Of a stretch of DNA of 64,000 nt, positions 5,610-42,568 are shown in pieces; position 1 is the first letter of the stretch, and each line of letters begins with the position of its first letter. Source of the stretch: Candidatus Abyssobacteria bacterium SURF_5 (GTDB lineage: Bacteria > Abyssobacteria > SURF-5); contig QZKU01000075.1 in NCBI GenBank assembly GCA_003598085.1, forward strand, positions 1 to 64,000. Direction: 5' to 3'. The position numbers and the translations under genes are program-made. The notes beneath the pieces were generated by a model. It made no database searches, was not told the origin of the DNA, and worked only from the letters and a program-made list of their open reading frames with translations.

Positions 5610-6140
5610 TTATCGTTCCACCGCGCCAAGGATTCTGCTAAGGTCTTTTTGCTCTTTCTCTTCTGTCGGGTGTATTTCCTGGAAATCTCCGCGCAGGGCC
5701 TTCAGAGCATAGCGTTCCGCATCGATCTCGGCCGGAGTGCGAAAGCCGAGCATGCGCAGCAGGGTCATGGGCGCCGTCCATCCCTTTAGCGACTGCTGCA
5801 AGAGGCAACCGGCGGCCAGCACGGGCAAGATATACCACTTACGGCCAAAAACAACGCCAAACGCGAGTCCTGCAAGAGTGAATCCCGCTGCATTCACGCC
5901 GAAAGCGCGTTCGATGTCCCACTCTTCATCGAGTTCATCCAGTCGGTCATCGATTGCGTCTTTCCCTGCTTGAGAATAATAAAGCACTCTCATCTCGATG
6001 TCCCGCCGGATTTCTTCGCTAATCCTTTCCGCCGTCGCACTTCCGATTACTTCTTCCGAGCTTACGCTCGAAGTGCTGCTTGATTCTTGATCCATTTCAT
6101 TTTCAGCTTCATGTGACATTCCACCGGTTTCTTCCAGCAT
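5610..6140 (-). CDS. Predicted membrane protein with DUF2892-like segment
   Basis: A 176-residue protein. The first 35 residues are Ser/Glu-rich and probably disordered. Residues 75-125 hold two hydrophobic stretches (AAGFTLAGLAFGVVFG and YILPVLAAGCLLQQSL) followed by GWTAP, the pattern of DUF2892/YgaP-type small membrane domains where ...GWCP is common. The C-terminus is charged and cytosolic. ATG 6140 is preceded by a strong GGGGAGGA RBS 6 nt away; a longer frame to 6158 would skip it. It lies 107 nt upstream of the small protein/thioredoxin pair on the same strand. Function unknown. Confidence 0.7.
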   Translation of the reverse strand: MLEETGGMSHEAENEMDQESSSTSSVSSEEVIGSATAERISEEIRRDIEMRVLYYSQAGKDAIDDRLDELDEEWDIERAFGVNAAGFTLAGLAFGVVFGRKWYILPVLAAGCLLQQSLKGWTAPMTLLRMLGFRTPAEIDAERYALKALRGDFQEIHPTEEKEQKDLSRILGAVER

Positions 6141-6494
6141 AGGAAATCCTCCCCTCAAAGCCGAGCGTGCGCAAGTTGTTCTTTAGCAAATCTATCATCC
6201 TTTTCGGATTCCGTCTATATCCAAATGATTTTTCAGAAAGGAGACGGTCATCCGTACGCTACCTGAGTGCCAGCACTCGCAGAATCAACAAGTGCGTTGC
6301 GGAAATGATCCGCTCGCGCCCAGCTTCAAGACGGTTAACAGGTAAGATGTTTTTTAATAGCAACAATGTTCATTCCTCCAAACATATTTTTTTCATTTAA
6401 CTCAAATAGAAGACAACGTAAACACCCGGTTTGCGGAAGAGGGGAAGTAACTCGACCACGGACGCGCGCTTGAAGTTCCGCTGTGCAGGGCCGC

Positions 6495-6655: not shown

Positions 6656-6670
6656 TGGCACAGAGATTGC
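6656..6670 (+). promoter_or_regulatory. Sigma-54 promoter of the EPS operon
   Basis: TGGCAC-AGAGA-TTGC matches the RpoN consensus TGGCAC(G)-N4-TTGC, with exactly 10 nt between the GG of the -24 box and the GC of the -12 box. Transcription should start near 6681, about 66 nt before the export lipoprotein. Sigma-54 promoters need an AAA+ activator; one with the matching architecture is encoded at 37250-38659 in the same locus. Confidence 0.8.
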
Positions 6671-6701
6671 CTCAGTTAGGTTCGAAACAATCGCAATCTC
6701 T
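6662..6701. repeat. 9-bp inverted repeat overlapping the sigma-54 -12 element
   Basis: AGAGATTGC at 6662-6670 is exactly repeated in inverse as GCAATCTCT at 6693-6701, with a 22-nt spacer that includes the predicted transcription start. The left arm covers the spacer and -12 element. It could be a repressor site, or chance. Because the start lies between the arms, only the right arm would be transcribed, so an RNA hairpin is unlikely. Confidence 0.5.
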
Positions 6702-6746
6702 CTTGATTGTGGGAAAAAACAAACATCTTCTTTGGAGGGCATAAGG

Positions 6747-7451
6747 ATGAGGAAAAAATACCTTGTGTTGTTGTTGGTCTGCCTTGTCCCCGTATCGTGT
6801 CAGTCGGCCCCACCAGGGGCGACTGTCGGAGAGTTTCCGGTCGCACCGATGGCGGTATACCATCTGGAGGCTCCCGACATGATTGAAATAGCCGTCCTAC
6901 CCCAGGAAGAATTAAATCGTATTGTAATCATCCGTCCTGACGGCAAAATCTCGCTCCCGCTTATTGGCGACGTTCATGTTGAGGGACTCACTCCGATGGA
7001 GCTCTCCGAGAGGCTGACCACCGACTTCTCAAAATACGTGAGGAACCCGGTAGTATCTGTGATCGTCACCGGATTCAACAGCAAGAAAATTTACGTCATC
7101 GGCGAGGTCTTCCGCCAGGGAGCATATCCGTATACGGGCGAGACGACCGTATTCGAGGCGGTCGAGGAAGCTGGCAGCTTTACGAGACGGGCCTCACTTG
7201 GGCGAGTCATCCTGGTGCGGGGGGACCTGCAAAATCCGCTTGTGATCGACGTTAACATGAGCGATGTGGTTCGCAAAGGAATTCAGGTGAAGGATCTCCA
7301 CGTGCAGCCGGGGGACATCGTTTACGTGCCTCCGAACGGATTTGCGAAAACAGGTTACGCAATCGAACAGGTGCTCTTCCCCTTCACCCCGATACTCGGG
7401 GTTGGCAGGGATATCGGCTATTTTCGCGAGCTTCAGGAAATCGGAGACTAA
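6747..7451 (+). CDS. Polysaccharide export outer-membrane lipoprotein (Wza-like)
   Basis: A 234-residue lipoprotein. A short basic N-terminus and hydrophobic core lead to the lipobox VPVSC (Cys near residue 19). Then follows the Poly_export domain, starting YHLEAPDMIEIAVLPQEELN and RPDGKISLPLIGDVHVEGLTP, then a SLBB domain beginning KKIYVIGEVFRQGAYPYTG. These proteins oligomerise into the periplasmic/outer-membrane channel that exports EPS. The start is ATG 6747, with GGAGG 9 nt upstream; five upstream in-frame codons lack an RBS. It is shorter than E. coli Wza (379), as is usual for XrtA-type loci. First gene of the operon from the sigma-54 promoter. Confidence 0.93.
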   Translation: MRKKYLVLLLVCLVPVSCQSAPPGATVGEFPVAPMAVYHLEAPDMIEIAVLPQEELNRIVIIRPDGKISLPLIGDVHVEGLTPMELSERLTTDFSKYVRNPVVSVIVTGFNSKKIYVIGEVFRQGAYPYTGETTVFEAVEEAGSFTRRASLGRVILVRGDLQNPLVIDVNMSDVVRKGIQVKDLHVQPGDIVYVPPNGFAKTGYAIEQVLFPFTPILGVGRDIGYFRELQEIGD

Positions 7452-7487: not shown

Positions 7488-9062
7488 ATGCAAGCTTCAA
7501 ACAAGGTGGATGTCCAGCAGTATCTTGATATGGTCACCAAGTACAAATGGCATGGGGTGATTCCAGCATCGATTCTAATGCTCATTCTGGCGATCGCGAC
7601 GTCGTTTCTGCCAAAGGTTTACAAGAGTTCATGCCTGGTCGAGGTCGATCGCGGGGCCATTGCGAATCCTCTAAAAACAGAACGCGACCGCCCGCGAAAC
7701 CTTTCGGAATACTTGACATTCTTCTCGGAGAACGCCATCAAGTGGTCAATTCTCTCACAGGTGGTCGACAAGGTGGGAGTGAACACGATCCTGGAGAACA
7801 GTGATAAATACAATCTGAGGACGATCAGCAAGCTAATCGGCCTGGTCGGCCCGGTCCGAGAATCGGGCAAGTCCGTCGATCAAGAATATCTACGGAAAGA
7901 AGCGGTAATCAATCTTCTCAAAAAGGAGATAACGTTCACCCAGAAACCTCCCAAGTTTCTGCTGCTCGAATACAGCGGGACTGATGCCAACATCAACGCG
8001 AAGGTTCTGAACACTCTCGTAGCTATGCTGATCGAGGAGAGAACAAAAGCAGGCCTTGCACAGGCCGGCCAGACCTATGATTTTATTCGAGCCGAAATGG
8101 AAAGCTACAGGCGGAAACTTGAATCAGCCGAGGTCAATCTCCGCGAATTCAAGGAGCAACATGTTACCGAACTCCCGTCAAACATGAACATAAACATTAC
8201 CCAATTAATGAACGACAAGTCCGAACTGATGGCGGCCGAAGCTGAAATCAAGGAACTGACCAGCCGGGTACAGTACATCGATGAGCAATTGAAAAAACAG
8301 AAGGAATTGATCGTATCCGAGGTGACTCTCGAAGCGAATCCGATGCTCGCCATGCTTAACCAGCGGATCATCGATGCGGAGATTGAACTGACGAACCTGA
8401 TAACCAATTATACGGAACTCCATCCGAGGGTAATCGAAACCAAATCCCGTCTTGCGAATTTGAAGAAGCAGCGCGAGGGGGTAACCGAATCGACATTAAA
8501 TTCTGAGACGACCATTCTAAATCCGGTCTACCAGCAGTTGACCCAGGACAAGCAAAACGCTCTCCTACGAAAGGAGTTGCTGACTAGCCGGGCCGGCCAC
8601 CTCAGGCAGAACATCGACGAAAACACGGCTCGTGTACGAAGCATGCCGTCGCAGGAGCAGCAATTACTCACGCTGACCCGCAATTATGAAGTTACGGCCA
8701 ATATTTACAACATGTTCCTCCAGAAACTCGAAGAGGCGCGGTTGAATGAAAAGCTGATAGCGGCCGCGACCGATGAGGACTCGTTCCGGGTAATTGAATA
8801 TGCGCGCGCCTCCCTAAGGCCGATCGCGCCGGTCAGGTTGAAGCTCTTCCTCATCATCCTGCTGATCGGCACGGGCACCGGCGCCGGAATAGTTGCTCTT
8901 TTCAATTATTTTGACGACTCCCTCAAAAGCATCGAAGAAGCGAAGGAGTTCCTGGGTAAGCCATTTCTGGGAACCGTTCCATCTCTTTCTGAAAAGAATA
9001 ACAACGGCAGCATCTACACCTACTTGGTAACAAAAGGTCGACATGTATCTCGAATACTATAA
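7488..9062 (+). CDS. Chain-length determinant / polysaccharide co-polymerase (Wzz/GumC-like)
   Basis: A 524-residue inner-membrane protein. TM1 lies at about residues 24-41 (VIPASILMLILAIATSFLP); a long periplasmic coiled-coil region covers about 170-420; the C-terminal TM2 is near 450-470 (LKLFLIILLIGTGTGAGIV), followed by a cytosolic tail with YFDDSLKSIEEAKEFLG. No kinase domain is fused: the kinase is the separate gene at 11325. Such proteins set polysaccharide chain length and contact the cognate BY-kinase. It overlaps the next gene by 20 nt. The layout matches the chain-length protein of XrtA-associated EPS loci. Confidence 0.92.
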   Translation: MQASNKVDVQQYLDMVTKYKWHGVIPASILMLILAIATSFLPKVYKSSCLVEVDRGAIANPLKTERDRPRNLSEYLTFFSENAIKWSILSQVVDKVGVNTILENSDKYNLRTISKLIGLVGPVRESGKSVDQEYLRKEAVINLLKKEITFTQKPPKFLLLEYSGTDANINAKVLNTLVAMLIEERTKAGLAQAGQTYDFIRAEMESYRRKLESAEVNLREFKEQHVTELPSNMNINITQLMNDKSELMAAEAEIKELTSRVQYIDEQLKKQKELIVSEVTLEANPMLAMLNQRIIDAEIELTNLITNYTELHPRVIETKSRLANLKKQREGVTESTLNSETTILNPVYQQLTQDKQNALLRKELLTSRAGHLRQNIDENTARVRSMPSQEQQLLTLTRNYEVTANIYNMFLQKLEEARLNEKLIAAATDEDSFRVIEYARASLRPIAPVRLKLFLIILLIGTGTGAGIVALFNYFDDSLKSIEEAKEFLGKPFLGTVPSLSEKNNNGSIYTYLVTKGRHVSRIL

Positions 9063-11301
9063 ACTGAAGGAAAGGCCATTCAGTTTGACACCCGATCCGG
9101 CTTTCCTGTTCTATAGTAATTCACACAAGCGCGCAATTGCCTTTCTTCGGTACGGCCTGCAGGAGTCAAAGGGGTTCCTTCAGTTGACAGGGCCGGTAGG
9201 ATCGGGCAAAACAACCCTCCTTCGAGCGGTACTGGCCAAATTGGATGACAAGACCCGGACTGCCTACATTATCAACCCATGTGCTCCTTTCCCCGAACTG
9301 CTCAAGGCAATCATGAAGGACCTTGAAATTCCAAACATCCCGCCTACCGTTTCAAAAATGGAACTTCTTGATTTCTTTCATGACTATCTGCTCATTCAGC
9401 TCAAGCGCACCTGCCGCGTCATCATCATCTTTGACGAGGCTCAGAACCTCAGCCTCAAGAATCTCGAAGAGATACGGATGCTTTCCAACTTTGAAACCTC
9501 AAAAGAAAAGCTTCTGCAGATAGTTTTTGTTGGCCAGCCGGAGTTCTCTCAGACGCTCGACCTGCCGGAATTGCGACAGTTACGACAACGTATCCAGGTG
9601 CGTTACCACTTGTCACCGCTCCGGCAGAAGGAAGTGAAAGAATACATTCACCATCGCCTGCAAAAAGCCGGCTCGAACGGCAACATCCACTTCACTGAAG
9701 AGGCTTGTGCCGAAATCTTCTCTTTTTCCGGAGGGATTCCTCGTATTATCAATGCCCTCTGCGACGTGACCCTGCTCATAGGATACGTCGCCGAACAGAG
9801 TACGTTCGATAAAGATGCCGTGCACGAGGCCATAAATGAGCTGGAAGGGAAGTTCGACGAATCTTCAGAACAGGAGGACATAGATACTCCAGCCGAGGGC
9901 CCCGAAGATCTCCCGGCGGTGGAGAGCCAACCACCTGCCCCCGAGGCGACCCCTGCAGAGGCTGCCGAGGAAACCGCCGCCTGCATTCAACAATTGAAAC
10001 AATACGAAGTCAAGGTGGAAAAACGCCCCCCCATAGTCGAGGATTCCTCAGACTCGAACAATGGCGATGGTTCCTCTGAATTGTCTCAAACGGTGATCGG
10101 AGGCACCCGACGAGGATCCTCAGCGGCGCCGATGCGAACGCAAGGCTCCCTACACGCGGCCGCCGAGTCTGCTCCCTCGCCCATCCCCTTGCCCTCCGCA
10201 AGGCGGGCCCAGTACGTCCCGTTGCGATCGTTTCTCCGGCGTCACGGCCAAAGAGATTTTCGAACGGCCGGCATAGGCGTTATTCAACTGGGAGGAACAG
10301 AGAGACCTCGCGGAACTTTGAAACAATTTATCTGCAAATACATAATGGGGAAAAACGGCGCCGGTCCGGCGGCCCTCAGCAAACTCAGGAGTGAGGCGGA
10401 ACCTGAGCCGGACGCTGCACCGTCCGCGCAAACATTCCAGCCGCAGATCGAGGCCGCGCCCGATAACGGCGTCAGTCTGGCGCAACAAATGACCGATCCG
10501 TCCGAGCAGGCTCACGCAGCGACTGCGCAACCGGGAACAACATCGATTTTCGTCCTGTACAAGAATGGAACAGTTTCGAAAGGAACGGCATTGGAACTAT
10601 CCCTGGAGGCAGAGGGTTTTGAATTCTCATCGCTCGACTGCGCGTCATCCGAGAATCTACAGTATGTCTCCTACGAAGAGGTTACTGCGGTCCGGGTTCT
10701 CAACAGTCCTGACGAGTCGCGAAAGAAGTGGCCGACGCCCTTTGAGGGAGAGGGACACCGAGCGGTAATTGCTCTCAGAAACGGGATTGTTCTTGAAGGA
10801 ACAGTGGGGGCCATTGCGGAATTCGCCGAGCCGCGCTTCCTTCTTTATTCAACGCGAAAGAAGCGGCCCGTATGGACGCTGATAGAAAAGGCGGGAACCA
10901 TAGGTATCCTGTGCGGGGATTATCGAAGCGGAATGTACAATGAGCCATTCGAGTATTTGGCTTATCAAGGGCTAGCTGACTGTCGTGATTATCTTGCGCC
11001 GTCCCCGGAGGAATCCGGAGCCGATGAAAGGTTCTGCGCGAATGACTTTCTTACGGCTTTGCGAAAGTATCAAGTCGCCGCCCGGATGCGACCGTCTTCA
11101 CGACGACTTCTCATGAAGATCTCTCTTGCAAACCTCAATCTGGGTATTCAACTCGTGCGCGAACACAAGTACGGCCGGGCCTTGCATATCTTGAGAAAAG
11201 TGGCGGCGGATGATCATCTCCGAACGAGAGCGCAGAGTCTTGCTGCAACTATTGCCATTCTGTGCAAGCCGCCATTGCTGATGAAAAAGAAAGAGTTCTA
11301 A
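9043..11301 (+). CDS. ExeA-like AAA ATPase with long C-terminal extension (XrtA-EPS type)
   Basis: A 752-residue protein. Residues 1-270 are an ExeA/GspA-type AAA ATPase: MYLEYYKLKERPFSLTPDP start, Walker A GPVGSGKTT (50-58), Walker B VIIIFDEAQN (about 127-136), then arginine-rich sensor segments. The same ATPase is a fixed part of XrtA/PEP-CTERM EPS loci, where it is usually 270-350 residues. Here residues 275-490 are low-complexity Pro/Ala/Glu-rich linker. Residues 500-620 hold two related beta modules (YKNGTVSKGTALELS and LRNGIVLEGTVGAIA), and the last 90 residues look like TPR helices. The extension suggests a scaffold function. Overlaps the Wzz gene by 20 nt. Confidence 0.85.
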   Translation: MYLEYYKLKERPFSLTPDPAFLFYSNSHKRAIAFLRYGLQESKGFLQLTGPVGSGKTTLLRAVLAKLDDKTRTAYIINPCAPFPELLKAIMKDLEIPNIPPTVSKMELLDFFHDYLLIQLKRTCRVIIIFDEAQNLSLKNLEEIRMLSNFETSKEKLLQIVFVGQPEFSQTLDLPELRQLRQRIQVRYHLSPLRQKEVKEYIHHRLQKAGSNGNIHFTEEACAEIFSFSGGIPRIINALCDVTLLIGYVAEQSTFDKDAVHEAINELEGKFDESSEQEDIDTPAEGPEDLPAVESQPPAPEATPAEAAEETAACIQQLKQYEVKVEKRPPIVEDSSDSNNGDGSSELSQTVIGGTRRGSSAAPMRTQGSLHAAAESAPSPIPLPSARRAQYVPLRSFLRRHGQRDFRTAGIGVIQLGGTERPRGTLKQFICKYIMGKNGAGPAALSKLRSEAEPEPDAAPSAQTFQPQIEAAPDNGVSLAQQMTDPSEQAHAATAQPGTTSIFVLYKNGTVSKGTALELSLEAEGFEFSSLDCASSENLQYVSYEEVTAVRVLNSPDESRKKWPTPFEGEGHRAVIALRNGIVLEGTVGAIAEFAEPRFLLYSTRKKRPVWTLIEKAGTIGILCGDYRSGMYNEPFEYLAYQGLADCRDYLAPSPEESGADERFCANDFLTALRKYQVAARMRPSSRRLLMKISLANLNLGIQLVREHKYGRALHILRKVAADDHLRTRAQSLAATIAILCKPPLLMKKKEF

Positions 11302-11324
11302 CCGATTGCTCGAAAGGGGCCGAT

Positions 11325-12131
11325 ATGTCAAAAATTGAGCGAGCATTAAGAAAAGCCGAAGAAGACAAACGGAAAATTCCACCCAGCGATCCCCCACGAG
11401 ATGAGGGGCCCGATCCAACAGTTCCGCATGTCACGCAGACGGTCAGGGAATTTCAGCCTTCACACACGGAACTTTCAGAATCCTTTCGAAAGATCGCTGC
11501 GAGGCTGAAATCATGCTGTGAAGTGATGGGGACGAACGACATTCTCTTCACGAGCGCAATAAGCCAGGAAGGCAAAACGACAGCGGCGGCAAATTGCGCA
11601 ATAGCCCTGGCACAGGATTTCAATCTCTCCGTTTGCCTTGTGGATTGCGACCTGCGCAACCCACAGCTTTCGGGATTCTTCACTTCGCCCCAGGGACCGT
11701 CGATTACCGACGTCTTGCGAGGGACCGCGGAAATCCCTTCGGTCATCCAGTCAACCACTACGGCAAACCTGTCGATCGTCCGATCAACAAAGGCAGGCCG
11801 CTCGTCTCTTCCGTTATTAAGCAGCGGCAGGCTTGCAAACCTTGTTTTCGAGCTGCGCTCGCGATTTGATTTCGTCGTATTCGACTCTCCGCCGATTCTG
11901 CCGATCGCCGACGCGGTAGTGCTTTCCAAGAGCGTTTCGGGCGCTGTTCTTGTTATCGAACCAGGCAGAACCCGGAAGAAACACATCGAACAAATTCTCG
12001 AACAGATCGACCCCGTTCGGGTCATCGGATTCATCATGAACTACAAGAGATATCGTATTCCACAACCATACAACTACCGGAAATACTACGATTACGGTTC
12101 ATGCGCACCTTTGGCGCTTGAAGGGAAATAG
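11325..12131 (+). CDS. BY-type tyrosine autokinase of the EPS locus
   Basis: A 268-residue cytosolic bacterial tyrosine kinase. It begins MSKIERALRKAEEDKRK, the usual start in XrtA-associated kinases. Walker A lies in SAISQEGKTT (77-86), Walker A' in VDCDLRNPQ, and Walker B in FVVFDSPPIL. The C-terminus carries the tyrosine cluster (YKRYRIPQPYNYRKYYDYG, eight Tyr in 19 residues) that is autophosphorylated and cycles the polysaccharide machine. ATG 11325 is chosen over an upstream in-frame ATG at 11262 because of family similarity and the AAGGGG RBS. Its membrane activator is expected to be the Wzz-like protein; the LMW phosphatase at 24274 is a likely antagonist. Confidence 0.93.
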   Translation: MSKIERALRKAEEDKRKIPPSDPPRDEGPDPTVPHVTQTVREFQPSHTELSESFRKIAARLKSCCEVMGTNDILFTSAISQEGKTTAAANCAIALAQDFNLSVCLVDCDLRNPQLSGFFTSPQGPSITDVLRGTAEIPSVIQSTTTANLSIVRSTKAGRSSLPLLSSGRLANLVFELRSRFDFVVFDSPPILPIADAVVLSKSVSGAVLVIEPGRTRKKHIEQILEQIDPVRVIGFIMNYKRYRIPQPYNYRKYYDYGSCAPLALEGK

Positions 12132-12155: not shown

Positions 12156-12380
12156 ATGGTTGAGAACGGCGACGAAATCCTGACCGGACAAGAGGCAAGA
12201 CAATTTTTGAAAATTAGCCGTTCGACTCTTTGGAAGCTCACTCGAGAGTCCAAAATTCCGGCGTATCGCGTCGGCAACGGAAAGACCTCGAACCTGCGCT
12301 ATAAGAAATCCGAGCTTATGGCGTGGTTGAATTCCAACCGAGTCAGCGAGAGGATACTCGAATCGCGTGGAATTCAGTAG
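12156..12380 (+). CDS. Small helix-turn-helix (excisionase/MerR-like) protein
   Basis: A 74-residue protein with a winged-helix pattern of the HTH_17/excisionase family: EILTGQEARQFLKISRSTLWKLTRESKIPAYRVGNG, then a basic wing (LRYKKSELMAWL). Such domains bind DNA in excisionases and in small regulators. It sits in the middle of the EPS operon, 24 nt after the kinase, with a GGGGAAGA RBS, so it is translated with it. No integrase or phage gene is nearby, which argues for a regulatory rather than recombination role. Target unknown. Confidence 0.8.
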   Translation: MVENGDEILTGQEARQFLKISRSTLWKLTRESKIPAYRVGNGKTSNLRYKKSELMAWLNSNRVSERILESRGIQ

Positions 12381-12483: not shown

Positions 12484-13656
12484 ATGTATGTAGAACACAT
12501 TTCCGACTTTTCACAGTTCGAGTCGCTTCGCGAGGAGTGGAATTCCTTTGTTGACCGGTGCGATGAAAGTCATATCAGCCACACACATGAATGGCTGGTT
12601 TGCTGGTGGAAGGCATTTCGGGAAAACGCACAACTGTGGATTTTGCTGTTCAGGAAGAGGGGGCGGCTTGCGGGAATTTTGCCGCTGATGCTCAGGCGGA
12701 AGCAATTCCGGGGGTTTCCCGTGAGGGTGCTCAGTTTCCCATTGAACGGTCACACACCAGAAGGCGGTCTGCTCTTCGAGAAATCTCAAACGGAAGGGCT
12801 CGAACACTTCCTGCGATATCTCCATGACGGGCGCAACCGGTGGGATATCCTGCGACTCGAGAAAGTCTATCAAAAATGTCTGTGCGATACTGATTTCCCT
12901 CTTCTCCTGGACAAGAATAACCTTCGACATGTGCACGTGGACACTTTTCAGTCGCCATACGTGGAGACCACCGCCGACTGGGATGAGTATTATGCCAGTC
13001 GGTCAAAGAAATTTCGAAAGGTGATGAGGAATAAGCTGAATCGAATGAATCAGGACGGCCTGCTTAGCATGGAGCGGTTGACTGGAGCGGACATCACTCC
13101 CGAAGCGTTGGAGGAAATCTTTGATGTCTCGAGGAGGAGTTGGAAAGCACAACTGAAACGATCCATTCCCGATGACGTCCATGTTGAAAACTTCTATCGC
13201 GAGATCACGGCCGCACTGGCCCCGCTGGAGAAAGTGGACGTGTGGCTGATGAGAAGAAACGGAAAGGTTGTAGCCTTTGAATACCATCTCAAGCACAAAG
13301 GAATCATTTATCCTATTCGCGCAGATTTCGATGACTTCTACCATGTTCTTTCTCCCGGATCGCTGCTCGAATTCCTTATCATGAAAAGGCTTTTCGATGA
13401 TCCTCTTATCAGAGGCTGCAACTCGTGCGGGCGCACCTATGATTATCTGATGCATTGGGCGACGGACATAATCGAGCACAGGGAGATTCTCATCTTCAAT
13501 TCCAGGAGTTATTCACGACAGCTCTTCTTTCTGGAATCCAAGATAGTGCCAATAGCAAAAAAGGCCAAAACCTGGGCATTTGATAGGGAGCAAAACAATG
13601 AAAAAGTCACTGTCCAGAGAGATGCTCGAAAGATTCACTCCATCCATAGCAGGTGA
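12484..13656 (+). CDS. FemAB/BioF2-like GNAT acyltransferase
   Basis: A 390-residue protein with the Acetyltransf_6/BioF2-like pattern: an N-terminal YVEHISDFSQFESLREEWNSFVDRC region, SHTHEWLVCWWKAF, and a C-terminal GNAT-like half with VWLMRRNGKVVAFEYHLKHKG and LSPGSLLEFLIMKRLF. This family transfers acyl or aminoacyl groups and is frequent in EPS and PEP-CTERM loci, where it is thought to modify sugars or peptide linkers. It begins 104 nt after the HTH gene with an AAAGG RBS, and its end overlaps the radical SAM gene by 59 nt. Donor and acceptor are unknown. Confidence 0.8.
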   Translation: MYVEHISDFSQFESLREEWNSFVDRCDESHISHTHEWLVCWWKAFRENAQLWILLFRKRGRLAGILPLMLRRKQFRGFPVRVLSFPLNGHTPEGGLLFEKSQTEGLEHFLRYLHDGRNRWDILRLEKVYQKCLCDTDFPLLLDKNNLRHVHVDTFQSPYVETTADWDEYYASRSKKFRKVMRNKLNRMNQDGLLSMERLTGADITPEALEEIFDVSRRSWKAQLKRSIPDDVHVENFYREITAALAPLEKVDVWLMRRNGKVVAFEYHLKHKGIIYPIRADFDDFYHVLSPGSLLEFLIMKRLFDDPLIRGCNSCGRTYDYLMHWATDIIEHREILIFNSRSYSRQLFFLESKIVPIAKKAKTWAFDREQNNEKVTVQRDARKIHSIHSR

Positions 13657-14779
13657 AGTGGCAAATGCCGTTCGGCGTGAAGTGAGCTATTCTCGCGGAG
13701 AACCCAAGCTGGCGGTACTGTTTTTGACATACCGCTGCACTTCCCGCTGCCGCACGTGCAAGATGTGGCTGCTTCAATGGGAGGCCAAGCGCGAGCTGAC
13801 GCCGGCCGAGTGGGTACGGGCGGCTGATACACTGACCGATGCGGGTGTCACAGTTTTCGAACTGTTCGGCGGCGATGTTTTCTTAAGGAAAGATGCATTG
13901 TTTCCTCTTATCTGGCGCCTGAAGAAAAAAAATGCAACAGTCCATATTCCGACGAATTCCCGGCTCCTCGATGAGGAGACGGCCGAGATGCTGATTGACG
14001 CGGGTGTCGATTACTTGTACCTGTCGACCGATGGGATCCGGGAAACCCACGATAGTATCCGCGGAATCGGCAATGCTTTTGCATCAGTGCAAAGGGCAAT
14101 TAAGGCGCTCGTAAAAAGTCGAAGAAACCGGTCGTGGCCGCGACTGATTTGTAACACGACCGTTTCCAAATACAATGTCGATTCCCTCGAGAAAATCGCT
14201 CAGTTCGCATCGACTTCGGGCTTTGACGAAGTCGATTTTGAATATGTTGGCGAGATGACGAAGGAGGATGTCGCCTCCTCAATGGTAGATGGCTTCAGTC
14301 CAACACCCTATTTTCTCAGAGACGGAGAATCGGTGCTCATATCTCCCGCACAGGCAGTCATTCTTAAAAAGAAGCTACGCGCGATTCACCGCAAACATAC
14401 GTCTACCGGTTTCACCGTCAGCAGCGTCAATATTGACTGTCTCTCCGAAGACGACCTTATTACCGGGTCGGTCCCAAGACATAAATGCTACACCGAGCGA
14501 TGTGAAGTTGTTGTCGATCCCGGCGGAAACGTGGTTGCCTGTCCCTTCTTCCATACATATAAGCTCGGGAACCTCTTTGAGGAGGATTTCAAAAAGATCT
14601 GGTGGAGCAAGAAGCACGAGAGCTTTCATCGGCACTTGCGTGAGAAAGGACTTCCCATGTGCCGGCACTGCATTCCGAGCGTCCAGCGCAGTCATTCCTT
14701 CTCCGACAGGTTGGAAAGAATCTACACGGTTCGCTTGCGGGCGGCACAACGAAAACTACTTGCGATTTCAGACCTATGA
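13598..14779 (+). CDS. Radical SAM enzyme with SPASM/twitch-like C-terminus
   Basis: A 393-residue radical SAM protein. The [4Fe-4S] motif is CTSRCRTC (Cys 47, 51, 54), followed by the GGE-equivalent FGGDVF and a TIM-barrel. The C-terminal region has CYTERCEVVVDPGGNVVACPFF...LGNLFEEDFKKIW...CRHC, the Cys pattern of SPASM/twitch auxiliary-cluster domains. These enzymes modify peptides, sugars or amino-sugars. ATG 13598 has an AGGGAG RBS, and the gene overlaps the preceding acyltransferase by 59 nt. Its stop overlaps the next start (ATGA), so tight translational coupling is likely. Substrate unknown; a sugar or aminoacyl group of the EPS is inferred from context. Confidence 0.88.
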   Translation: MKKSLSREMLERFTPSIAGEVANAVRREVSYSRGEPKLAVLFLTYRCTSRCRTCKMWLLQWEAKRELTPAEWVRAADTLTDAGVTVFELFGGDVFLRKDALFPLIWRLKKKNATVHIPTNSRLLDEETAEMLIDAGVDYLYLSTDGIRETHDSIRGIGNAFASVQRAIKALVKSRRNRSWPRLICNTTVSKYNVDSLEKIAQFASTSGFDEVDFEYVGEMTKEDVASSMVDGFSPTPYFLRDGESVLISPAQAVILKKKLRAIHRKHTSTGFTVSSVNIDCLSEDDLITGSVPRHKCYTERCEVVVDPGGNVVACPFFHTYKLGNLFEEDFKKIWWSKKHESFHRHLREKGLPMCRHCIPSVQRSHSFSDRLERIYTVRLRAAQRKLLAISDL

Positions 14780-15558
14780 GTCTTTCAGGAAGAGCAAAAT
14801 ACTACTACCTCAGATTGCGGGAAGAGTACAGCGAGAATGGCCTGTTGGATACCGGCACATTCGTCTGCTCAAGCGCGATCCGGAAAGCTTTCCTCACTAA
14901 CAGCTCCACCTGGTACCGGTTGGAGTTGCGGAATTGCTTGCCACTGATAAAGCCGCGTGTTGCAGCGCAATTCGATTTCATGGATCTCGAGCAGGCCACA
15001 GAATATTTCCGAAACAGGCATGTGTCCTTTCCGTGGATGTTCAGCGAATCCGAACTGGAAGTTGCGGCCTTCAATGGGCATAAGTTTCCTTGCTTTCTTG
15101 TCGACGGCGCCATCACGGCATATTTGAAAGTCGGCATCTCCAACGTCTACGTGTTTGATTATAAACAGGCCGTTCATCTGGCGCCCGCCACCGCCATATT
15201 CTACGACGGGTTCGTTGAGCCTTCGTATCGGTGCAAAGGCCTCGGAGCCGCCATCCTTTCGGCAACCGCAGCTTTCCTTAAGGAAGCTGGTTTCCACACT
15301 GTTTGGGCGCAGATTCCCGCATGGAACGTCGCCTCTATAAGAATGACACTCAACGCCGGTTTTGAACCCGTTGGCGAAGCACGGTATTTTCGGGTGCTCG
15401 GAAGGGAATTCCTGTTCAACCGCCCAAAGAGTCTCCCGCTTCGACTGGGATCCTTCAATAGTGGCGGTTATCGGATGAGCCTGGAGGAATCGACGAGCCA
15501 GCAACAAAGCGTCAAGGCCGGCAGACCGTTGACAAAAAGGAACGATCGGAACCCATGA
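14776..15558 (+). CDS. GNAT N-acetyltransferase
   Basis: A 260-residue protein with an N-terminal extension of about 120 residues and a C-terminal GNAT domain. The acetyl-CoA site is visible as FVEPSYRCKGLGAAILSATAAFL (R/Q-x-x-G-x-G/A) followed by AQIPAWNVASIRMTLNAGFEPVGEARYF, the classic end of a GNAT fold. ATG 14776 overlaps the TGA of the radical SAM gene; a longer in-frame start at 14659 would lie deep inside that gene and is rejected. It likely acetylates an amino-sugar or amino acid produced in this gene group. The stop overlaps the next start by 4 nt. Confidence 0.85.
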   Translation: MSLSGRAKYYYLRLREEYSENGLLDTGTFVCSSAIRKAFLTNSSTWYRLELRNCLPLIKPRVAAQFDFMDLEQATEYFRNRHVSFPWMFSESELEVAAFNGHKFPCFLVDGAITAYLKVGISNVYVFDYKQAVHLAPATAIFYDGFVEPSYRCKGLGAAILSATAAFLKEAGFHTVWAQIPAWNVASIRMTLNAGFEPVGEARYFRVLGREFLFNRPKSLPLRLGSFNSGGYRMSLEESTSQQQSVKAGRPLTKRNDRNP

Positions 15559-17621
15559 ATGCTCAAAATAAATGGAAAAAGTTTGGAGCCGAAGCCGCTT
15601 GCAGGACCGGTATCTTCGAAATCGGCCGGTTCTTCCGCAGGAACACGATTCCGATACTCTGCTACCACCGTTTCGCGCAGTCCCGGAAATATGGCGCCCT
15701 GCCGGCAGCCCTCTTTGAGAGCCACTTGAAATACATCAGGTCGCGCTTCACACCTATCTCATTCCGGCAACTCGACGCGATCCTGCAAGGCATTATCTCA
15801 GTCAATAACCCCATAATACTCACTGTAGACGATGGCTATCGCGACTTTTTCGAGGTGGCCCTGCCGTTGCTGAAGAAATATGGATGCACTGCAACTTTTT
15901 TTGTCACAACTCGCTTTGTGGATGGAGAGATATGGCTGTGGCCGGACATCATAAACTACGCCGTTCAGCATACCGAGCGGGAATCCCTTTTTCTGCCGGT
16001 CACCGGAGAATCCATCCGGCTCACAACCATGGAGGACAAGGCGGCTGCGCGCAGTCGTCTTCACAGGACTTATAAGGAACTGTCGACCGAACTACGGAAG
16101 CGCTTTCTTGAAGATGTTTCCACCGGCCTGAACATAAGCATTCCTGAATTACCCAGTTTCGACTATCAAGCGGCTTCATGGGAGCAGATACGAGAGGCGG
16201 CCAGAGAAGGTCTCGAGGTCGGCTCCCACACAATGAATCATGAAATCCTGGCCCACATCGATCCGAAACAGGCGGAGGCAGAAGTCGAGCAGTCGAAAAG
16301 GCGAATCGAAACCGAGTTGAACGAGGACGTAATCGCTTTTTCCTATCCAAATGGGATGCAAGGGGATTTCAGGCAGTGCGATAAGGAAGCGTTGCGAAAG
16401 AACGGCTATCGCTTCGCCGTCACCTGTAACTTCGGTTTCAATAATCTCGATTCCGATCCGCATGAGCTTGATCGAATTGTTGCAAGTGCCGATATCGTTT
16501 CCTTCACTAAGGAAGTGTCAGGCTTTGAGAACCTCCTCCATCCTGGATCAAACGGCAGGACTTACACCGCTTCCGCTCCTCCCGCCACTTCGACCGTGGT
16601 TTCATCGCTCTGTGATGACGAACAAAAGGAGGAATGGGACCTCTTCGTGGATCAGTCCGAGAGCGGAAGCGTTTTCCACCGGTATGCATGGAAGCACGTC
16701 TTCGAAAAATCCTATGCGAACACGTGCCTCTACTTGATTGCCAGGGCTGAAAGAGCGGTCGTGGGGGTACTTCCCCTGATTTCAAAGAAAAGCCTTCTTT
16801 TCGGAAATTTCTTTGTCTCACTTCCCTATTTCGACCATGCGGGTATCTGTGCCGACGGCCAAGAGGCGCGCAAATCCTTGTTGTTATGTGCGATCGAGTT
16901 CGGCCGGCGCGCAAACGCCCGCTATATCGAGTTCCGCTACGCCCGGGAAGAAATGCTCCTGCCCTCTAAACAATCAAAAGCTTCTTTGGTGCTTCAGTTG
17001 CCGGACGACCCGGACCGGCTGTGGCACACGCTGAAGGCAAAGGTTCGCAATCAGATAAGGAAGGCTGGGAAGGCGGGCCTGTCGGTGGTATCCGGAGAAC
17101 AGGATCTCATCGATGACTTCTTTTCTGTCTATGCACGGAACATGCGTGATCTCGGTTCTCCCTCACATTGCAGGTCCTTCTTTCAGAACATCTGTGAATA
17201 TTTTCCGGAAGCGGTACGCGTCTTCTGTGTCCGCCTTAACCACAAGCCCGTTGCGGCGGGCTTTACTATCGCCTCGGGAGACGTCCTCTGCATTCCCTGG
17301 GCATCGTCATTACGCCAGTACAACGCGATGTGTCCGAACATGCTGCTTTATTGGGCCGTCTTATCATATGCCTGTGAGAGAGGCTTTGCCTCGTTCAATT
17401 TCGGTCGATCCACTCCCGGCGACGGCACATATCAGTTCAAGATGCAGTGGGGAGCAATTCCTGTGCAACTCTATTGGCAGTACTGGCTGGCGCCGGGCGA
17501 GACACTGCCGAATTTGAGCATGACCAACTCGAAATACAGTCTTCCGGTCCGAGTGTGGAAAAACCTCCCGCTCACCGTAACCGAAAAACTCGGCCCACGG
17601 ATAATACAAAAACTTGCATAG
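15555..17621 (+). CDS. Polysaccharide deacetylase fused to a FemAB-like acyltransferase (XrtA type)
   Basis: A 688-residue two-domain protein. Residues 1-330 are a NodB-type deacetylase: ILCYHRF, metal motif TVDDGYRDF (about 94-102), SHTMNHE and FSYPNGM. Residues 350-688 are a FemAB/GNAT-type acyltransferase (WDLFVDQSESGSVFHRYAW, RYIEFRYARE, KVRNQIRKAGKAGL, FNFGRSTPGDGTYQFKMQWG), closely resembling the FemAB protein that accompanies XrtA loci. In known loci the deacetylase and the FemAB protein are separate genes; here one chain carries both. No signal peptide is seen, so action is probably cytosolic. It may deacetylate an amino-sugar and then acylate the free amine. ATGA overlap with the GNAT gene. 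Confidence 0.87.
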   Translation: MNAQNKWKKFGAEAACRTGIFEIGRFFRRNTIPILCYHRFAQSRKYGALPAALFESHLKYIRSRFTPISFRQLDAILQGIISVNNPIILTVDDGYRDFFEVALPLLKKYGCTATFFVTTRFVDGEIWLWPDIINYAVQHTERESLFLPVTGESIRLTTMEDKAAARSRLHRTYKELSTELRKRFLEDVSTGLNISIPELPSFDYQAASWEQIREAAREGLEVGSHTMNHEILAHIDPKQAEAEVEQSKRRIETELNEDVIAFSYPNGMQGDFRQCDKEALRKNGYRFAVTCNFGFNNLDSDPHELDRIVASADIVSFTKEVSGFENLLHPGSNGRTYTASAPPATSTVVSSLCDDEQKEEWDLFVDQSESGSVFHRYAWKHVFEKSYANTCLYLIARAERAVVGVLPLISKKSLLFGNFFVSLPYFDHAGICADGQEARKSLLLCAIEFGRRANARYIEFRYAREEMLLPSKQSKASLVLQLPDDPDRLWHTLKAKVRNQIRKAGKAGLSVVSGEQDLIDDFFSVYARNMRDLGSPSHCRSFFQNICEYFPEAVRVFCVRLNHKPVAAGFTIASGDVLCIPWASSLRQYNAMCPNMLLYWAVLSYACERGFASFNFGRSTPGDGTYQFKMQWGAIPVQLYWQYWLAPGETLPNLSMTNSKYSLPVRVWKNLPLTVTEKLGPRIIQKLA

Positions 17622-36044: not shown

Positions 36045-36375
36045 ACTCAGGATACCTTTCTGGCACCGAGGGTGCAGCTCTTGCTGCACCCTCTTCTTAT
36101 CCGCTCCTTGCGCCACATTTGAATCTGAAAATGTCTATTGTCGGAGATAATTTTCCGGTGCCCGTACTTGATCAAAAGCAGGTCGACCGCAACCGAATGC
36201 TTTGCCATTCTGCGAAACCCATCCCGCGCGTATCGAAGGAGCGGGAATCCGTCTTCGATTTGCCCCTAACGATAGCTTTGCTCGGCTTGGACTGCGGGGT
36301 CTCCACCTTCAGAGTCTCCATTGCCATTTTCCTTTCAGGTGTGCCGATGTTAGAGTAATGTGTACTGGTCGCCCT
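36045..36375. other. 331-nt gap after the secreted protein gene
   Basis: It contains the terminator at 36068-36093. A 75-codon open frame (36131-36358) lacks an RBS and has no recognisable family, and I do not call it. Nothing else is seen. Confidence 0.4.
36068..36093 (+). terminator. Rho-independent terminator after the secreted protein gene
   Basis: GAGGGTGCAGC-TCTT-GCTGCACCCTC is a perfect 11-bp stem with a 4-nt loop, followed by TTCTTAT. It lies 24 nt after the stop codon at 36044. The T-tract is short but the stem is strong. Confidence 0.8.
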
Positions 36376-37203
36376 ATGAGAAACGCACTGACAATCGACG
36401 TTGAAGATTACTTTCAGGTGGAGAGCTTCAAATCCCTGGTCAAGTTCGAATCCTGGGAGCAATTTGCTCTGCGCGTGGAGGCGAATGTCGACCGCCTGTT
36501 GGCAATTCTTGAGGAAGAGCAAATAAGATGCACTTTTTTCGTCCTCGGATGGATTGCTGACCGTGCTCCTCAAGTCGTCCGCCGCATTCACGGACAAGGA
36601 CATGAGGTCGCCAGTCACGGCTATGCGCATCAGATGGTAACCGGACAGACGCCGGGCGAATTCCGTGACGACATCCATAAGGCGAAATCAATTCTTGAAG
36701 ATATTACCGGCGAGGGGATATTAGGGTACCGGGCGCCAACCTTCTCTGTAACCCGCAATACTTTCTGGGCCCTTGATGCGCTGGTGGAGGAAGGTTTTCT
36801 TTATGATTCGAGTGTCTTCCCCGTTCGCCACGACCGCTACGGCATTCCGGATTGGACACAATACATCACGCGCGTCCAGCTTCGCAATGGAGCCTCCATA
36901 CTGGAGGTCCCACCGTTGACCGCAAAGGTGCTGGGAACCAACATCCCCCTGGGCGGCGGCGGTTATTTCCGCCTCGCTCCATTATGGCTGTCCCGCTGGG
37001 CAATCCTGCGCTTCAATTCGGTCGGTCATCCGGCAGTGATCTACCTGCATCCCTGGGAAATCGACGCAAGTCAGCCACGCTTCCCCCTCCCCCCCCTGCA
37101 GAGGTTTCGGCACTACGTCAACATTGAGACGACCGAAAGGAAGCTTCGCCGCCTCTTGGCAGGCGCCCGGTTTACTTCAGTGAGAAACGTGCTTTCGCTC
37201 TAA
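36376..37203 (+). CDS. XrtA-type polysaccharide deacetylase with DUF3473-like C-terminus
   Basis: A 275-residue deacetylase that begins MRNALTIDVEDYFQVESF, the start typical of exosortase-A-associated deacetylases, with metal motif DVEDYF, CTFFVLGWIA, VASHGYAHQMV and GYRAPTFSVT. The C-terminus FRHYVNIETTERKLRRLL matches the DUF3473 extension of the family. ATG 36376 is chosen by that similarity; an alternative ATG at 36358 adds six residues, and both have weak RBS. It is the third deacetylase activity of the locus, and the one most diagnostic for an XrtA-like EPS system. Confidence 0.92.
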   Translation: MRNALTIDVEDYFQVESFKSLVKFESWEQFALRVEANVDRLLAILEEEQIRCTFFVLGWIADRAPQVVRRIHGQGHEVASHGYAHQMVTGQTPGEFRDDIHKAKSILEDITGEGILGYRAPTFSVTRNTFWALDALVEEGFLYDSSVFPVRHDRYGIPDWTQYITRVQLRNGASILEVPPLTAKVLGTNIPLGGGGYFRLAPLWLSRWAILRFNSVGHPAVIYLHPWEIDASQPRFPLPPLQRFRHYVNIETTERKLRRLLAGARFTSVRNVLSL

Positions 37204-37249: not shown

Positions 37250-38659
37250 CTACACCTTGAAGGTCAACTCGAGCAAGCCGTATTTCTTCATCTTCTGATA
37301 TAAGGTCGTCCGGTTGATTTCCAGAAACTCGGCTGTTTTATTGCGATTCCCCTTAAAATGCTGCAGTGATTTTGCGATGGCGCGTTTCTCCGCGTCCTCG
37401 ACCGCAAGATGGAGCGGCACCATCCTGTTGGCTGAATCCATCCGGCTGGTGGTGCGAATCTGATCGGGCAGAAATTCCGGCGTGATCTGATCGCCCGCAC
37501 ATAGTATTACCGCCCGTTCAATCGTGTTTTCCAGTTCTCTCACGTTTCCGGGCCAAGAATGAGAAAGCAGCCGTTTCATCACCTCGGGCGTAATTCCCTT
37601 GATGTGTCGCGAATTCAGACGATTGTACTTGTCGAGAAAATATTCGACGAGCGCCGGCACATCTCCGAGACGTTCCGACAGCGGTGGCAGGATAATTTTG
37701 ACTACGTTCAACCGGTAGAACAAGTCTTCGCGGAATTCTCCTTTCGCCACACACTGATCCAAATCCCGGTTTGCGGCCGCGATAACACGAACGTTGCTTT
37801 GGATCGTTTCGGCGCTGCCGACTTTTTCGAATTTCTTATCCTGCAGGAATCGCAACAATTTCACCTGCAATCCCAGAGTAAGCGTGTCGATCTCGTCGAG
37901 GAAAATAGTGCCTTCCCCGGCTTTCTCGATCTTCCCAATCTTATCGGCGACCGCACTTGTGAAAGCCCCCTTCACGTGGCCGAACAACTCGCTTTCCAGC
38001 AGATTCTCCGACAATGCTCCACAGCTCACTTCAACAAGAGGCTGATTCTTTCGCCGGGAATGATAATGAATAGCCCTCGCGATACTGGACTTGCCGGTGC
38101 CGCTGGCGCCCGCAATCAGGATAGTTGCCTCGGTATCGGCGACAATGGAGATAAGCTGGAAGATTTTCTGCATCTGGTGGTCGTTGCCTACCAGGTTCCT
38201 GAACCCGAATTTTTCGCTCAGTTGCTTCTTCAGTTCCAGGTTTTCGAGCCTCAGGCTCTTCTGTTCCAGCGCTCGATCAATACACAGTTTCACTTCTTCG
38301 TCGTTGAGGGGCTTCGTCACGTACTCGAAGGCGCCCAATTTTATCCCGTTCACCGCGCCTTGTATTGAGCCGTACGCGGTGATCAAGATGACCGCAGTTT
38401 CTCCATAATGTTCCTTGACGCTTTTCAGCAAGTCATAACCATTCAGACCCGGCATGTTAATGTCGGCGAAAATCAGGTCGCACGACTGCTTCTCCAGGAA
38501 GTTGAGCGCCGTCTCCCCGTCCTCGAATGCCTGAACGGCGAATCCTTCGCGAACAAGGAGTTCCCTTAAAGAATACCGGATGAGCGGGTCATCGTCGACA
38601 ATAAAAATCTGCGCGTTCTTCCTCTTGAGCCGCATGTATGCTGATAGCTCCGCCCTCAA
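37250..38659 (-). CDS. Sigma-54-dependent response regulator (NtrC family, PrsR-like)
   Basis: A 469-residue activator: receiver domain (1-130, phospho-Asp 66 in FADINMPGLNGYDLL, Lys in VTKPLN), AAA+ domain with Walker A GASGTGKS (184-191), the sigma-54 contact loop GAFTSA (231-236) and Walker B GTIFLDEID, then a Fis-type HTH (NKTAEFLEINRTTLYQKM). The GAFTGA glycine at position 5 is serine. The start is TTG 38659, overlapping the kinase stop; an alternative ATG at 38635 is possible. Its layout and place in the locus match PrsR, the regulator of exosortase-A systems. The likely target is the promoter at 6656. Confidence 0.92.
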   Translation of the reverse strand: MRAELSAYMRLKRKNAQIFIVDDDPLIRYSLRELLVREGFAVQAFEDGETALNFLEKQSCDLIFADINMPGLNGYDLLKSVKEHYGETAVILITAYGSIQGAVNGIKLGAFEYVTKPLNDEEVKLCIDRALEQKSLRLENLELKKQLSEKFGFRNLVGNDHQMQKIFQLISIVADTEATILIAGASGTGKSSIARAIHYHSRRKNQPLVEVSCGALSENLLESELFGHVKGAFTSAVADKIGKIEKAGEGTIFLDEIDTLTLGLQVKLLRFLQDKKFEKVGSAETIQSNVRVIAAANRDLDQCVAKGEFREDLFYRLNVVKIILPPLSERLGDVPALVEYFLDKYNRLNSRHIKGITPEVMKRLLSHSWPGNVRELENTIERAVILCAGDQITPEFLPDQIRTTSRMDSANRMVPLHLAVEDAEKRAIAKSLQHFKGNRNKTAEFLEINRTTLYQKMKKYGLLELTFKV

Positions 38660-40263
38660 GTGACAAGCTGGCTCTCTGGAAATGTTAAGTAAAAGGTCGT
38701 CCCCGCATCTTCCCTGGATTCCGCCCGTATGGTCCCGCCATGCCTTTCAACCGCCTTCTTCACTATCGTCAAGCCCAGGCCGGTTCCCCTCCCATATTCC
38801 TTCGTGGTCCAAAACGCATCGAAGATTCGAGCTTGCTGCGCCTCAGGAATCCCGCAGCCGTTATCCGCGATGGAAATCCGCAGTTGGTGTGAGCGAACGC
38901 TCGTCTTGATAGTGATTATTCCGTTATCCGAACTGATCGCGTCGACAGCATTCGCGAGTAAATTGACAAAGATCTGGTGAAAATGGTTTGCGTCCACCAA
39001 CGGATTGCGCGGACTCAGTTTCAGGTCAACTTTTATGTTCTTTTCGCTGTTCCGACAGCGAACGAGCGCCAAGACGTTTTTTATCACGGAATTCAATGAT
39101 GACGGTTCTTCATGCTTCGCCGACAATCCCAAGAACGACTTCATCAAGGCGCTCATTCGCTGGAGCCCCTTGAGTGCCTGATCAAGGTATTCATCGGCAG
39201 GAATACCTTCACTTACATTTGAGCGCGCCATCTTCACCAGTCGAAAGACCCCGTCAAGCGGATTATTGACCTCATGGACGATTATCGAAGTAAGGCTGCC
39301 AATAAGTGACAACCTTTCTGATTCAATCAGCTTCTGCTGAACCTCGTAATTGCTGGTGTTATCGCTCAGGACAGCCAGCCCCGTTTCGCCACTGCCGCCG
39401 CGCAGTGCATCGAGCGCCGAAAACTTCACCTTCAGCACGCGACGAGAGCCTACCGCCCTGACATTAATCAAGCTGAATGGGAGTTTTCGGTCGCGCAAAT
39501 CGGTGAGTTTTCTTGAGAGAAGATCCGGCGAAATCTCAAGCGGAAGTTTGCGCAGGTCGAAACCCACATTTACGAGCCGGCCCGCATTTCCGAACAGCGA
39601 GTGCAATTCCTCTTCCTTGTTACAGAAGGTGATACGGAAGGAAGCGTCGAAAAGAAGCACGCACCCTGGAAAACACGACAACAGGCGGCACATCGGATCC
39701 TGCTCCTTTTCTTTCACCTTCTTCCGACCTTCGATCGCGTACAGACTGCTTCTCAAGAGCTCCGATTTACCGCGTTTGAATGCCCGCTCAAATCTGTCCC
39801 CATAGTGAGTGGATATTGCCTTGCACCTCTCGATTTCCCGGTTTCCGAACTTCCGGCCGCCTTTGGGCCCCGTCACGTTCACCACCGCAAAGACCGTTGC
39901 CTCCTTCACGATTGGAAAAGAAAGAAACTGCTTTACCATGCCTTCCTCTTGCCGAGGTGTCAGGCAGCTTCTCGCGAGCATATCGTTCAGAATGAGCGGC
40001 TGTCTCTTTTTGGCTACCAGCCCGGTGATCCCGTTCCCGATCGCGACGCTGTCCCCGCAATGATGATTCGCGCGCGGCCCAGCCGCGGAGACCAGCCGCA
40101 GAGCTGCTTCCTGCGGCTTCATGAGGAATACCGATCCCGATTCCACCTCAAACTCGCCCATGCAGTGCAGCATTACTTCCTCAGCGATCTTCTCCATCGG
40201 ATAGACATGCCTTGCATGACTTTGTCGCGGAATGACGTCTGTAACATCGGGTTTCAAATACAC
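38656..40263 (-). CDS. Histidine kinase with GAF and PAS domains, partner of the response regulator
   Basis: A 535-residue kinase: GAF domain (about 25-160), PAS-like domain (about 190-310), HisKA with phospho-His 330 in SIIVHEVNNPLDGV, and HATPase_c with NLLANAVDAIS, DNGCGIPEA and GRGTGLGLTIVKKAV. No transmembrane segment is visible, so it is cytosolic, unlike the membrane-bound PrsK kinases of many XrtA loci. Its stop overlaps the response regulator start, so the two are co-translated. The GAF and PAS domains should sense a small molecule or redox state. Confidence 0.9.
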   Translation of the reverse strand: MYLKPDVTDVIPRQSHARHVYPMEKIAEEVMLHCMGEFEVESGSVFLMKPQEAALRLVSAAGPRANHHCGDSVAIGNGITGLVAKKRQPLILNDMLARSCLTPRQEEGMVKQFLSFPIVKEATVFAVVNVTGPKGGRKFGNREIERCKAISTHYGDRFERAFKRGKSELLRSSLYAIEGRKKVKEKEQDPMCRLLSCFPGCVLLFDASFRITFCNKEEELHSLFGNAGRLVNVGFDLRKLPLEISPDLLSRKLTDLRDRKLPFSLINVRAVGSRRVLKVKFSALDALRGGSGETGLAVLSDNTSNYEVQQKLIESERLSLIGSLTSIIVHEVNNPLDGVFRLVKMARSNVSEGIPADEYLDQALKGLQRMSALMKSFLGLSAKHEEPSSLNSVIKNVLALVRCRNSEKNIKVDLKLSPRNPLVDANHFHQIFVNLLANAVDAISSDNGIITIKTSVRSHQLRISIADNGCGIPEAQQARIFDAFWTTKEYGRGTGLGLTIVKKAVERHGGTIRAESREDAGTTFYLTFPESQLVT

Positions 40264-42155: not shown

Positions 42156-42184
42156 TTGACAAGCGTCGGTTCATCTGATATAAT
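42156..42184 (+). promoter_or_regulatory. Perfect-consensus sigma-70 promoter
   Basis: TTGACA (42156-42161), a 17-nt spacer and TATAAT (42179-42184): both hexamers are full consensus. Transcription would start near 42191, leaving about 378 nt of leader before the secreted protein's start codon. A strong constitutive promoter is expected unless the leader attenuates it. Confidence 0.85.
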
Positions 42185-42369: not shown

Positions 42370-42568
42370 GCGGCCGGCGCCGATTAGATTATCAGAAGGA
42401 CGATCATCCTGCCCTGTTTCAATTTTTTCTAAGGAGGGCTATTTGGAACACATATCTGTGCGCAACTTCTAATTTTCGGCGCCGTGTCTCGTGCTGGGCG
42501 CAGATGAAGAGACAAGGCTCCGTATTGGTAAGTTGTTTTTGGGCAAAAACGGATATAGGGAGAAGGTT

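Follow-up and report, generated by a model that had tools for sequence, protein, structure and literature searches.

The sigma-54 promoters of PEP-CTERM genes are the closest described counterparts of the locus reported here. In Proteobacteria, these sites lie about 71 nt before the genes, and about 63 nt above the site stands an activator box that ends in TTTACA; motif 1 of the same study is a TTTACA-ending box located 32–92 nt before the sigma-54 motif (PMC1569441). The sole tested PEP-CTERM case is Aquincola tertiaricarbonis, in which the −24/−12 promoter of pepA (TGGCAC/CTGCTT) was mapped by primer extension and RpoN drives pepA but seemingly not the exopolysaccharide (EPS) genes (PMC9850573). 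In Desulfovibrio vulgaris, the NtrC-type regulators DVUA0057 and DVU0110, with sigma-54 promoters, have been assigned to EPS/biofilm operons (PMC3333781, PMC4641369), and a link between sigma-54 promoters and genes for EPS synthesis and transport has been found across phyla (PMC3162934, which does not mention PEP-CTERM). Given these precedents, sigma-54 control of EPS genes is a known theme. Our literature search, which took in subscription papers only to a small extent, found no description of the export-operon sigma-54 promoter considered here.

The locus resembles the PrsK–PrsR system (Haft et al. 2006, PMC1569441) in having a sigma-54 site about 70–80 nt before a start codon, candidate activator boxes upstream, and an NtrC-type regulator and a kinase near EPS genes; two related genomes also share the exosortase, PEP-CTERM genes and PrsT of that system. 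It differs in that the site precedes an EPS export operon rather than, as is mostly the case there, a single PEP-CTERM gene, in the distance of the boxes (about 250–290 bp upstream, compared with about 63 nt), in a regulator that falls outside the PrsR clade and in a genome without an exosortase over cut-off. With A. tertiaricarbonis (PMC9850573) it has in common an exosortase-type EPS setting and a neighbourhood of the same kind, with sugar transferase, kinase and regulator; there the RpoN site is at a PEP-CTERM gene, whereas here it is at the EPS export operon itself. The likeness to D. vulgaris, drawn from published descriptions, consists of NtrC-type regulators and sigma-54 promoters at EPS operons, and the difference is that the predicted targets of DVUA0057 are of the PEP-CTERM type (PMC3333781, PMC4641369). 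New here are two non-coding conserved boxes upstream of the sigma-54 site. The departures from the known systems are the target within an exosortase-type system, a distant probable enhancer, a regulator pair other than PrsK–PrsR and persistence without an exosortase.

Genomes and locus

The window, the whole stretch of DNA analysed, comprises positions 1–64,000 of contig C75 from Candidatus Abyssobacteria SURF_5 (G000), an uncultured deep-subsurface bacterium with a genome of 5.1 Mb in 145 contigs (completeness 98.5%). Only two of the 60 genomes compared, G001 and G002, are same-family relatives. NCBIfam searches of window proteins covered 30 ORFs from a list with a cut-off of at least 120 amino acids; of the genes below that size, the survey took in the HTH_17 gene. 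The features considered are as follows.

6362–6384, + strand: conserved upstream box 1 (AACAATGTTCATTCCTCCAAACA), candidate activator site, conserved in three genomes
6408–6426, + strand: conserved upstream box 2 (AGAAGACAACGTAAACACC), candidate activator site, conserved in three genomes
6656–6670, + strand: predicted sigma-54 (−24/−12) promoter, exact match, conserved in G001 and G002
6747–7451, + strand: polysaccharide export lipoprotein (Poly_export and SLBB), first operon gene
7488–9062, + strand: chain-length determinant (TIGR03007-like)
9043–11301, + strand: XrtA-associated-type ATPase (TIGR03015-like)
11262–12131, + strand: tyrosine autokinase (TIGR03018-like)
12156–12380, + strand: HTH_17 protein of 74 amino acids, conserved after the autokinase in G001 and G002
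12484–34460, + strand: co-directional EPS genes, their intergenic gaps free of + strand terminator-like hairpins
36068–36093, + strand: terminator-like hairpin (11 pairs, 8 of them G–C)
36202–37203, + strand: XrtA-type polysaccharide deacetylase (above the TIGR03006 cut-off), oriented convergently to the regulator in three genomes
37250–38659, − strand: NtrC-family response regulator (REC, sigma-54 AAA+, Fis HTH; GAFTSA loop), candidate activator
38656–40263, − strand: soluble GAF histidine kinase, probable partner
41136–42089, + strand: initiating sugar-phosphate transferase (TIGR03013/TIGR03025-like), member of the conserved regulator block

The export, chain-length, ATPase and autokinase genes occur in identical order in the three genomes. 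XrtA-type locus models were matched over cut-off by the FemAB protein (325.3 bits; cut-off, 260.35) and the polysaccharide deacetylase (375.7; 276.2); they were also the best matches, yet under cut-off, for the export (128; 180), chain-length (224.2; 278.85), ATPase (305.8; 324.5) and autokinase (137; 230.65) proteins. The HTH_17 gene is too short for the ORF list and fills an apparent gap after the autokinase; its product, which we take to be excisionase/BldC-like, is possibly a feedback regulator of the operon. The genes at 12484–34460 encode acetyltransferase-like proteins, a radical SAM protein, a deacetylase–FemAB protein, a flippase, glycosyltransferases, a ligase and AMP-binding enzymes. 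Within this set, a radical SAM/SPASM-like protein is encoded at 13580–14779, and a polysaccharide deacetylase is fused to an XrtA-type FemAB domain at 15555–17621.

A further same-strand ORF follows position 34460 and ends at 36044. The hairpin at 36068–36093 is the only + strand terminator-like hairpin found in the gaps of the gene set, and its strength implies that the operon reaches about 36044 at most. A one-mismatch match at 36061 was rejected as a second sigma-54 promoter as it overlaps this hairpin, which starts at 36068. The original prediction had the promoter driving a giant EPS operon: it does front a large co-directional EPS gene set, but the extent of the transcript is only plausible, capped near 36044, and a single operon of about 28 kb is a plausible reading of the gene arrangement.

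A sigma-54 site before the export operon

The sequence TGGCACAGAGATTGC at 6656–6670 on the + strand has the GG-N10-GC geometry that had been claimed for it, and is the sole match without mismatches in the 64 kb to either TGGCACN5TTGC or TGGCAYN5TTGC. With up to two mismatches allowed, the window shows no excess (52 matches compared with a shuffle mean of 59.2), so the weight lies with the exact match alone. Across the whole genomes, matches to TGGCAYN5TTGC and to the reversed pattern number 63 and 14 in G000, 67 and 12 in G001, and 66 and 15 in G002. The probability of a chance + strand match in the 588-nt intergenic gap is about 8 × 10−4 (hand estimate, based on 7 forward control matches per 5.1 Mb). 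The export lipoprotein gene begins with an ATG at 6747, preceded by an RBS-like GGAGGG at 6734–6739. The site lies 76 nt before this ATG, in agreement with the predicted 77 nt, and the corresponding distances are 73 nt in G002 (hand count) and 90 nt in G001.

Conservation in related genomes had been named beforehand as a check, and perfect sites, TGGCATAGTTGTTGC in G002 and TGGCATGACTATTGC in G001, were found at the equivalent position in both same-family relatives, in which the export lipoprotein orthologues are 76% and 70% identical, respectively. Across 30 loci with export homologues, the perfect site occurs in all three family members and in none of the 27 distant ones, three of which have a site with one mismatch; the genomes that share the export-gene site are only three, all from a single family. 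The sigma factor gene rpoN was found in all three genomes (in G000 at C31:5654–6127, 221.9 bits). Family-wide conservation, the presence of rpoN and the conserved boxes upstream all support the predicted promoter, and on these sequence grounds we consider that 6656–6670 is very probably a real sigma-54 promoter.

Conserved boxes upstream of the site

From the start of one box to that of the other is 46 bp in each of the three genomes, and box 2 lies 248 bp from the promoter in G000 and 248 and 257 bp from it in the two relatives. The best ungapped 64-nt upstream window has 33 columns identical in the three genomes, whereas none of 60 dinucleotide shuffles gave more than 16. Anchored on the sigma-54 site, identity between G000 and G001 is 61% at −300 to −230 and 28% at −225 to −1; the boxes stand out against near-random flanking DNA. 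When 12 sequences were scanned, both boxes scored far above every other place. The exact TTTACA hexamer is absent from the 420 nt above the three export sites. The footprint was rejected as coding DNA (identical columns by phase, 11, 12 and 10; no open frame common to the three genomes) and as known RNA (no Rfam family match at E 0.1).

No boxes were found in the scanned loci near the regulator gene at 37250–38659, or before the sigma-54 sites of neighbouring genes in G001 and G002. The box 1 pattern, with up to two mismatches, is matched 17 times in G000 (reversed pattern, 2 times), 8 times in G001 (4) and 12 times in G002 (2). Fewer than two mismatches occur only at the sites of the locus itself in G001 (zero mismatches) and G002 (one). 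The site in the window itself has two, and weaker box 1 targets may exist elsewhere in G000. We infer that the two boxes are binding sites of an activator; together they form a probable enhancer, and it is quite likely that the export promoter uses them.

The regulator–kinase pair

An NtrC-type activator and a kinase were expected at 37250–40263 on the strand opposite to the promoter, and both are indeed encoded there on the − strand. The kinase had been described as a GAF/PAS protein: Pfam identifies GAF and kinase domains, whereas no PAS model reaches the Pfam threshold; no hydrophobic membrane segment was found in it. The regulator orthologues are 70% (G002) and 66% (G001) identical, with the next full-length matches at 47% or less. 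The order deacetylase, regulator, kinase and sugar transferase is kept in both relatives, and a PilZ-type gene is matched in G001 only.

Membership of the PrsR/PrsK families was not supported. With the PrsR model (TIGR02915; cut-off, 502.6), the regulator reaches 403.7 bits and is outscored by 11 of its G000 paralogues, and no protein of the three genomes exceeds the PrsR cut-off. In a 44-row tree that took in 13 of the 14 over-cut-off PrsR sequences (L092 was left out), the regulator and its two orthologues are separated by a 100/100 branch from these 13 and one sequence below cut-off; score and tree together rule out its identity as PrsR. The kinase reaches 94.7 bits against PrsK (TIGR02916; cut-off, 300), the match being limited to the catalytic core, and has no membrane segment. 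Overall, the PrsR model has 85 matches in G000, 33 of which exceed 250 bits and are read as sigma-54 activators.

At the position of the GAFTGA loop that contacts sigma-54, the regulator has GAFTSA in G000 and G002 and GAFTTA in G001. According to published accounts, S at this position is putatively functional, with T not listed (PMC3162934), and GAFTHA and GAFTDA belong to the variants expected to keep activity (PMC4641369). Regulator and promoter are 30 kb apart on opposite strands, and are on separate contigs in the relatives. As EPS genes surround the pair in each of the three genomes, the regulator is the most likely activator; as boxes are absent near its gene and before neighbouring sigma-54 sites, only context ties it to them. 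We put the chance that it activates the export promoter at about even.

Other elements were noted around the pair. In the window, no sigma-54 match with zero or one mismatch precedes the regulator, the sugar transferase or the secreted-protein ORF at 42491–44755; a 12-of-12 sigma-70-type match (TTGACA-17-TATAAT with TG) lies before this ORF at 42156–42184. An identical sigma-54 site, TGGCATTTGTCTTGC, adjoins the regulator in G001 and G002 (L060:18133 and L062:8991), has no boxes and precedes a gene whose secreted product shows weak Ig-like similarity. On the same contig of G000, 33 kb past the first pair, another NtrC-type regulator is encoded together with a kinase (L049:11254–13373, equivalent to G000:C75:71254–73373).

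Absence of the protein-sorting arm

Both G001 and G002 carry, divergent from the export operon, a PEP-CTERM gene followed by PrsT, and in both an exosortase lies a few kb from the regulator. The PEP-CTERM gene has its own sigma-54 site, TGGCATGTTACTTGC in G002 and CGGCATACTTCTTGC (one mismatch) in G001. The G000 genome yields no PEP-CTERM match at E 1, and neither PrsT nor exosortase has a match over cut-off in it (one 18-bit sub-cut-off exosortase match is at C127:13633). The window positions that match the PEP-CTERM, PrsT and exosortase loci of the relatives are occupied by other genes. Given the completeness of 98.5%, loss is likelier than an assembly gap. Acquisition of the sorting arm by G001 and G002 is a possible alternative history.

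On the − strand at 6258–6272, TGGCACTCAGGTAGC is a sigma-54 match with one mismatch, 100 nt before the divergent ORF at 5610–6158. It lies where the relatives carry the promoter of the PEP-CTERM gene, and is possibly a relic of it. Our reading is that the sigma-54 unit was retained for EPS after the sorting arm was lost. A fuller scenario is speculative and, on balance, doubtful: an ancestral enhancer would have fired both the divergent PEP-CTERM side and the EPS-export side through one box pair, with a non-orthologous regulator pair replacing PrsKR, and the window's genome would then have lost the PEP-CTERM gene, PrsT and exosortase and kept the enhancer as a dedicated EPS switch.

Alternative explanations

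The absence of an excess of degenerate matches in the window is what would be expected if the GG-N10-GC match had arisen by chance and the operon used a housekeeping promoter. We regard this as highly improbable, given that exact sites occur at the equivalent position in three genomes where the rest of the upstream DNA is nearly random, and that the intergenic gap ahead of the export gene shows no + strand sigma-70-type match. It is also conceivable that the sigma-54 promoter uses a different activator site and that the boxes serve, for example, a repressor or the divergent gene. They do lie between divergent genes, the divergent PEP-CTERM gene of G001 and G002 has a sigma-54 site of its own, and the weak − strand site at 6258–6272 leaves room for divergent use. 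However, the PEP-CTERM gene is gone in G000, yet the boxes persist, still 248 bp from the export promoter, and we consider this use of the boxes unlikely.

The strongest competitor accepts both promoter and boxes but assigns them to another NtrC-family protein, leaving the regulator at 37250–38659 to control something else. Candidates are plentiful, with 33 strong activator-type matches in G000; in the scanned loci the boxes occur only at the export promoter and never near the regulator; and the sigma-54 site beside the regulator in the relatives precedes a secreted protein and is without boxes. Against this stands the regulator block, which is kept with EPS genes in three genomes (in a synteny search with this regulator as the sole activator query). 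We give this possibility real weight, somewhat short of even.

Proposed mechanism and implications

Our preferred model, which we hold to be reasonably likely as a whole, is that the EPS export and assembly operon has a genuine sigma-54 promoter, activated from the two boxes, most likely by the regulator at 37250–38659. RNA polymerase with RpoN would wait in a closed state at the −24/−12 element, with a predicted transcription start near 6682. An AAA+ activator bound to the two boxes, about 248–294 bp upstream, would presumably loop over, hydrolyse ATP and open the complex, such that the export lipoprotein, chain-length, ATPase, autokinase and small HTH genes would be transcribed only once the activator is switched on. 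The same transcript probably runs to about 34460, an extent suggested by the gene arrangement. The response regulator at 37250–38659, phosphorylated by the soluble GAF kinase, would be the most likely activator, if its pairing with the boxes is correct.

If the model is true, it provides a concrete enhancer sequence for testing against candidate regulators. EPS export in this deep-subsurface lineage would be an all-or-none, activator-gated decision, in contrast to the tested PEP-CTERM organism, in which RpoN control falls on the sorted protein and seemingly leaves out the polysaccharide. The locus would then represent a regulatory unit that has outlived the exosortase system that accompanies it in its relatives.
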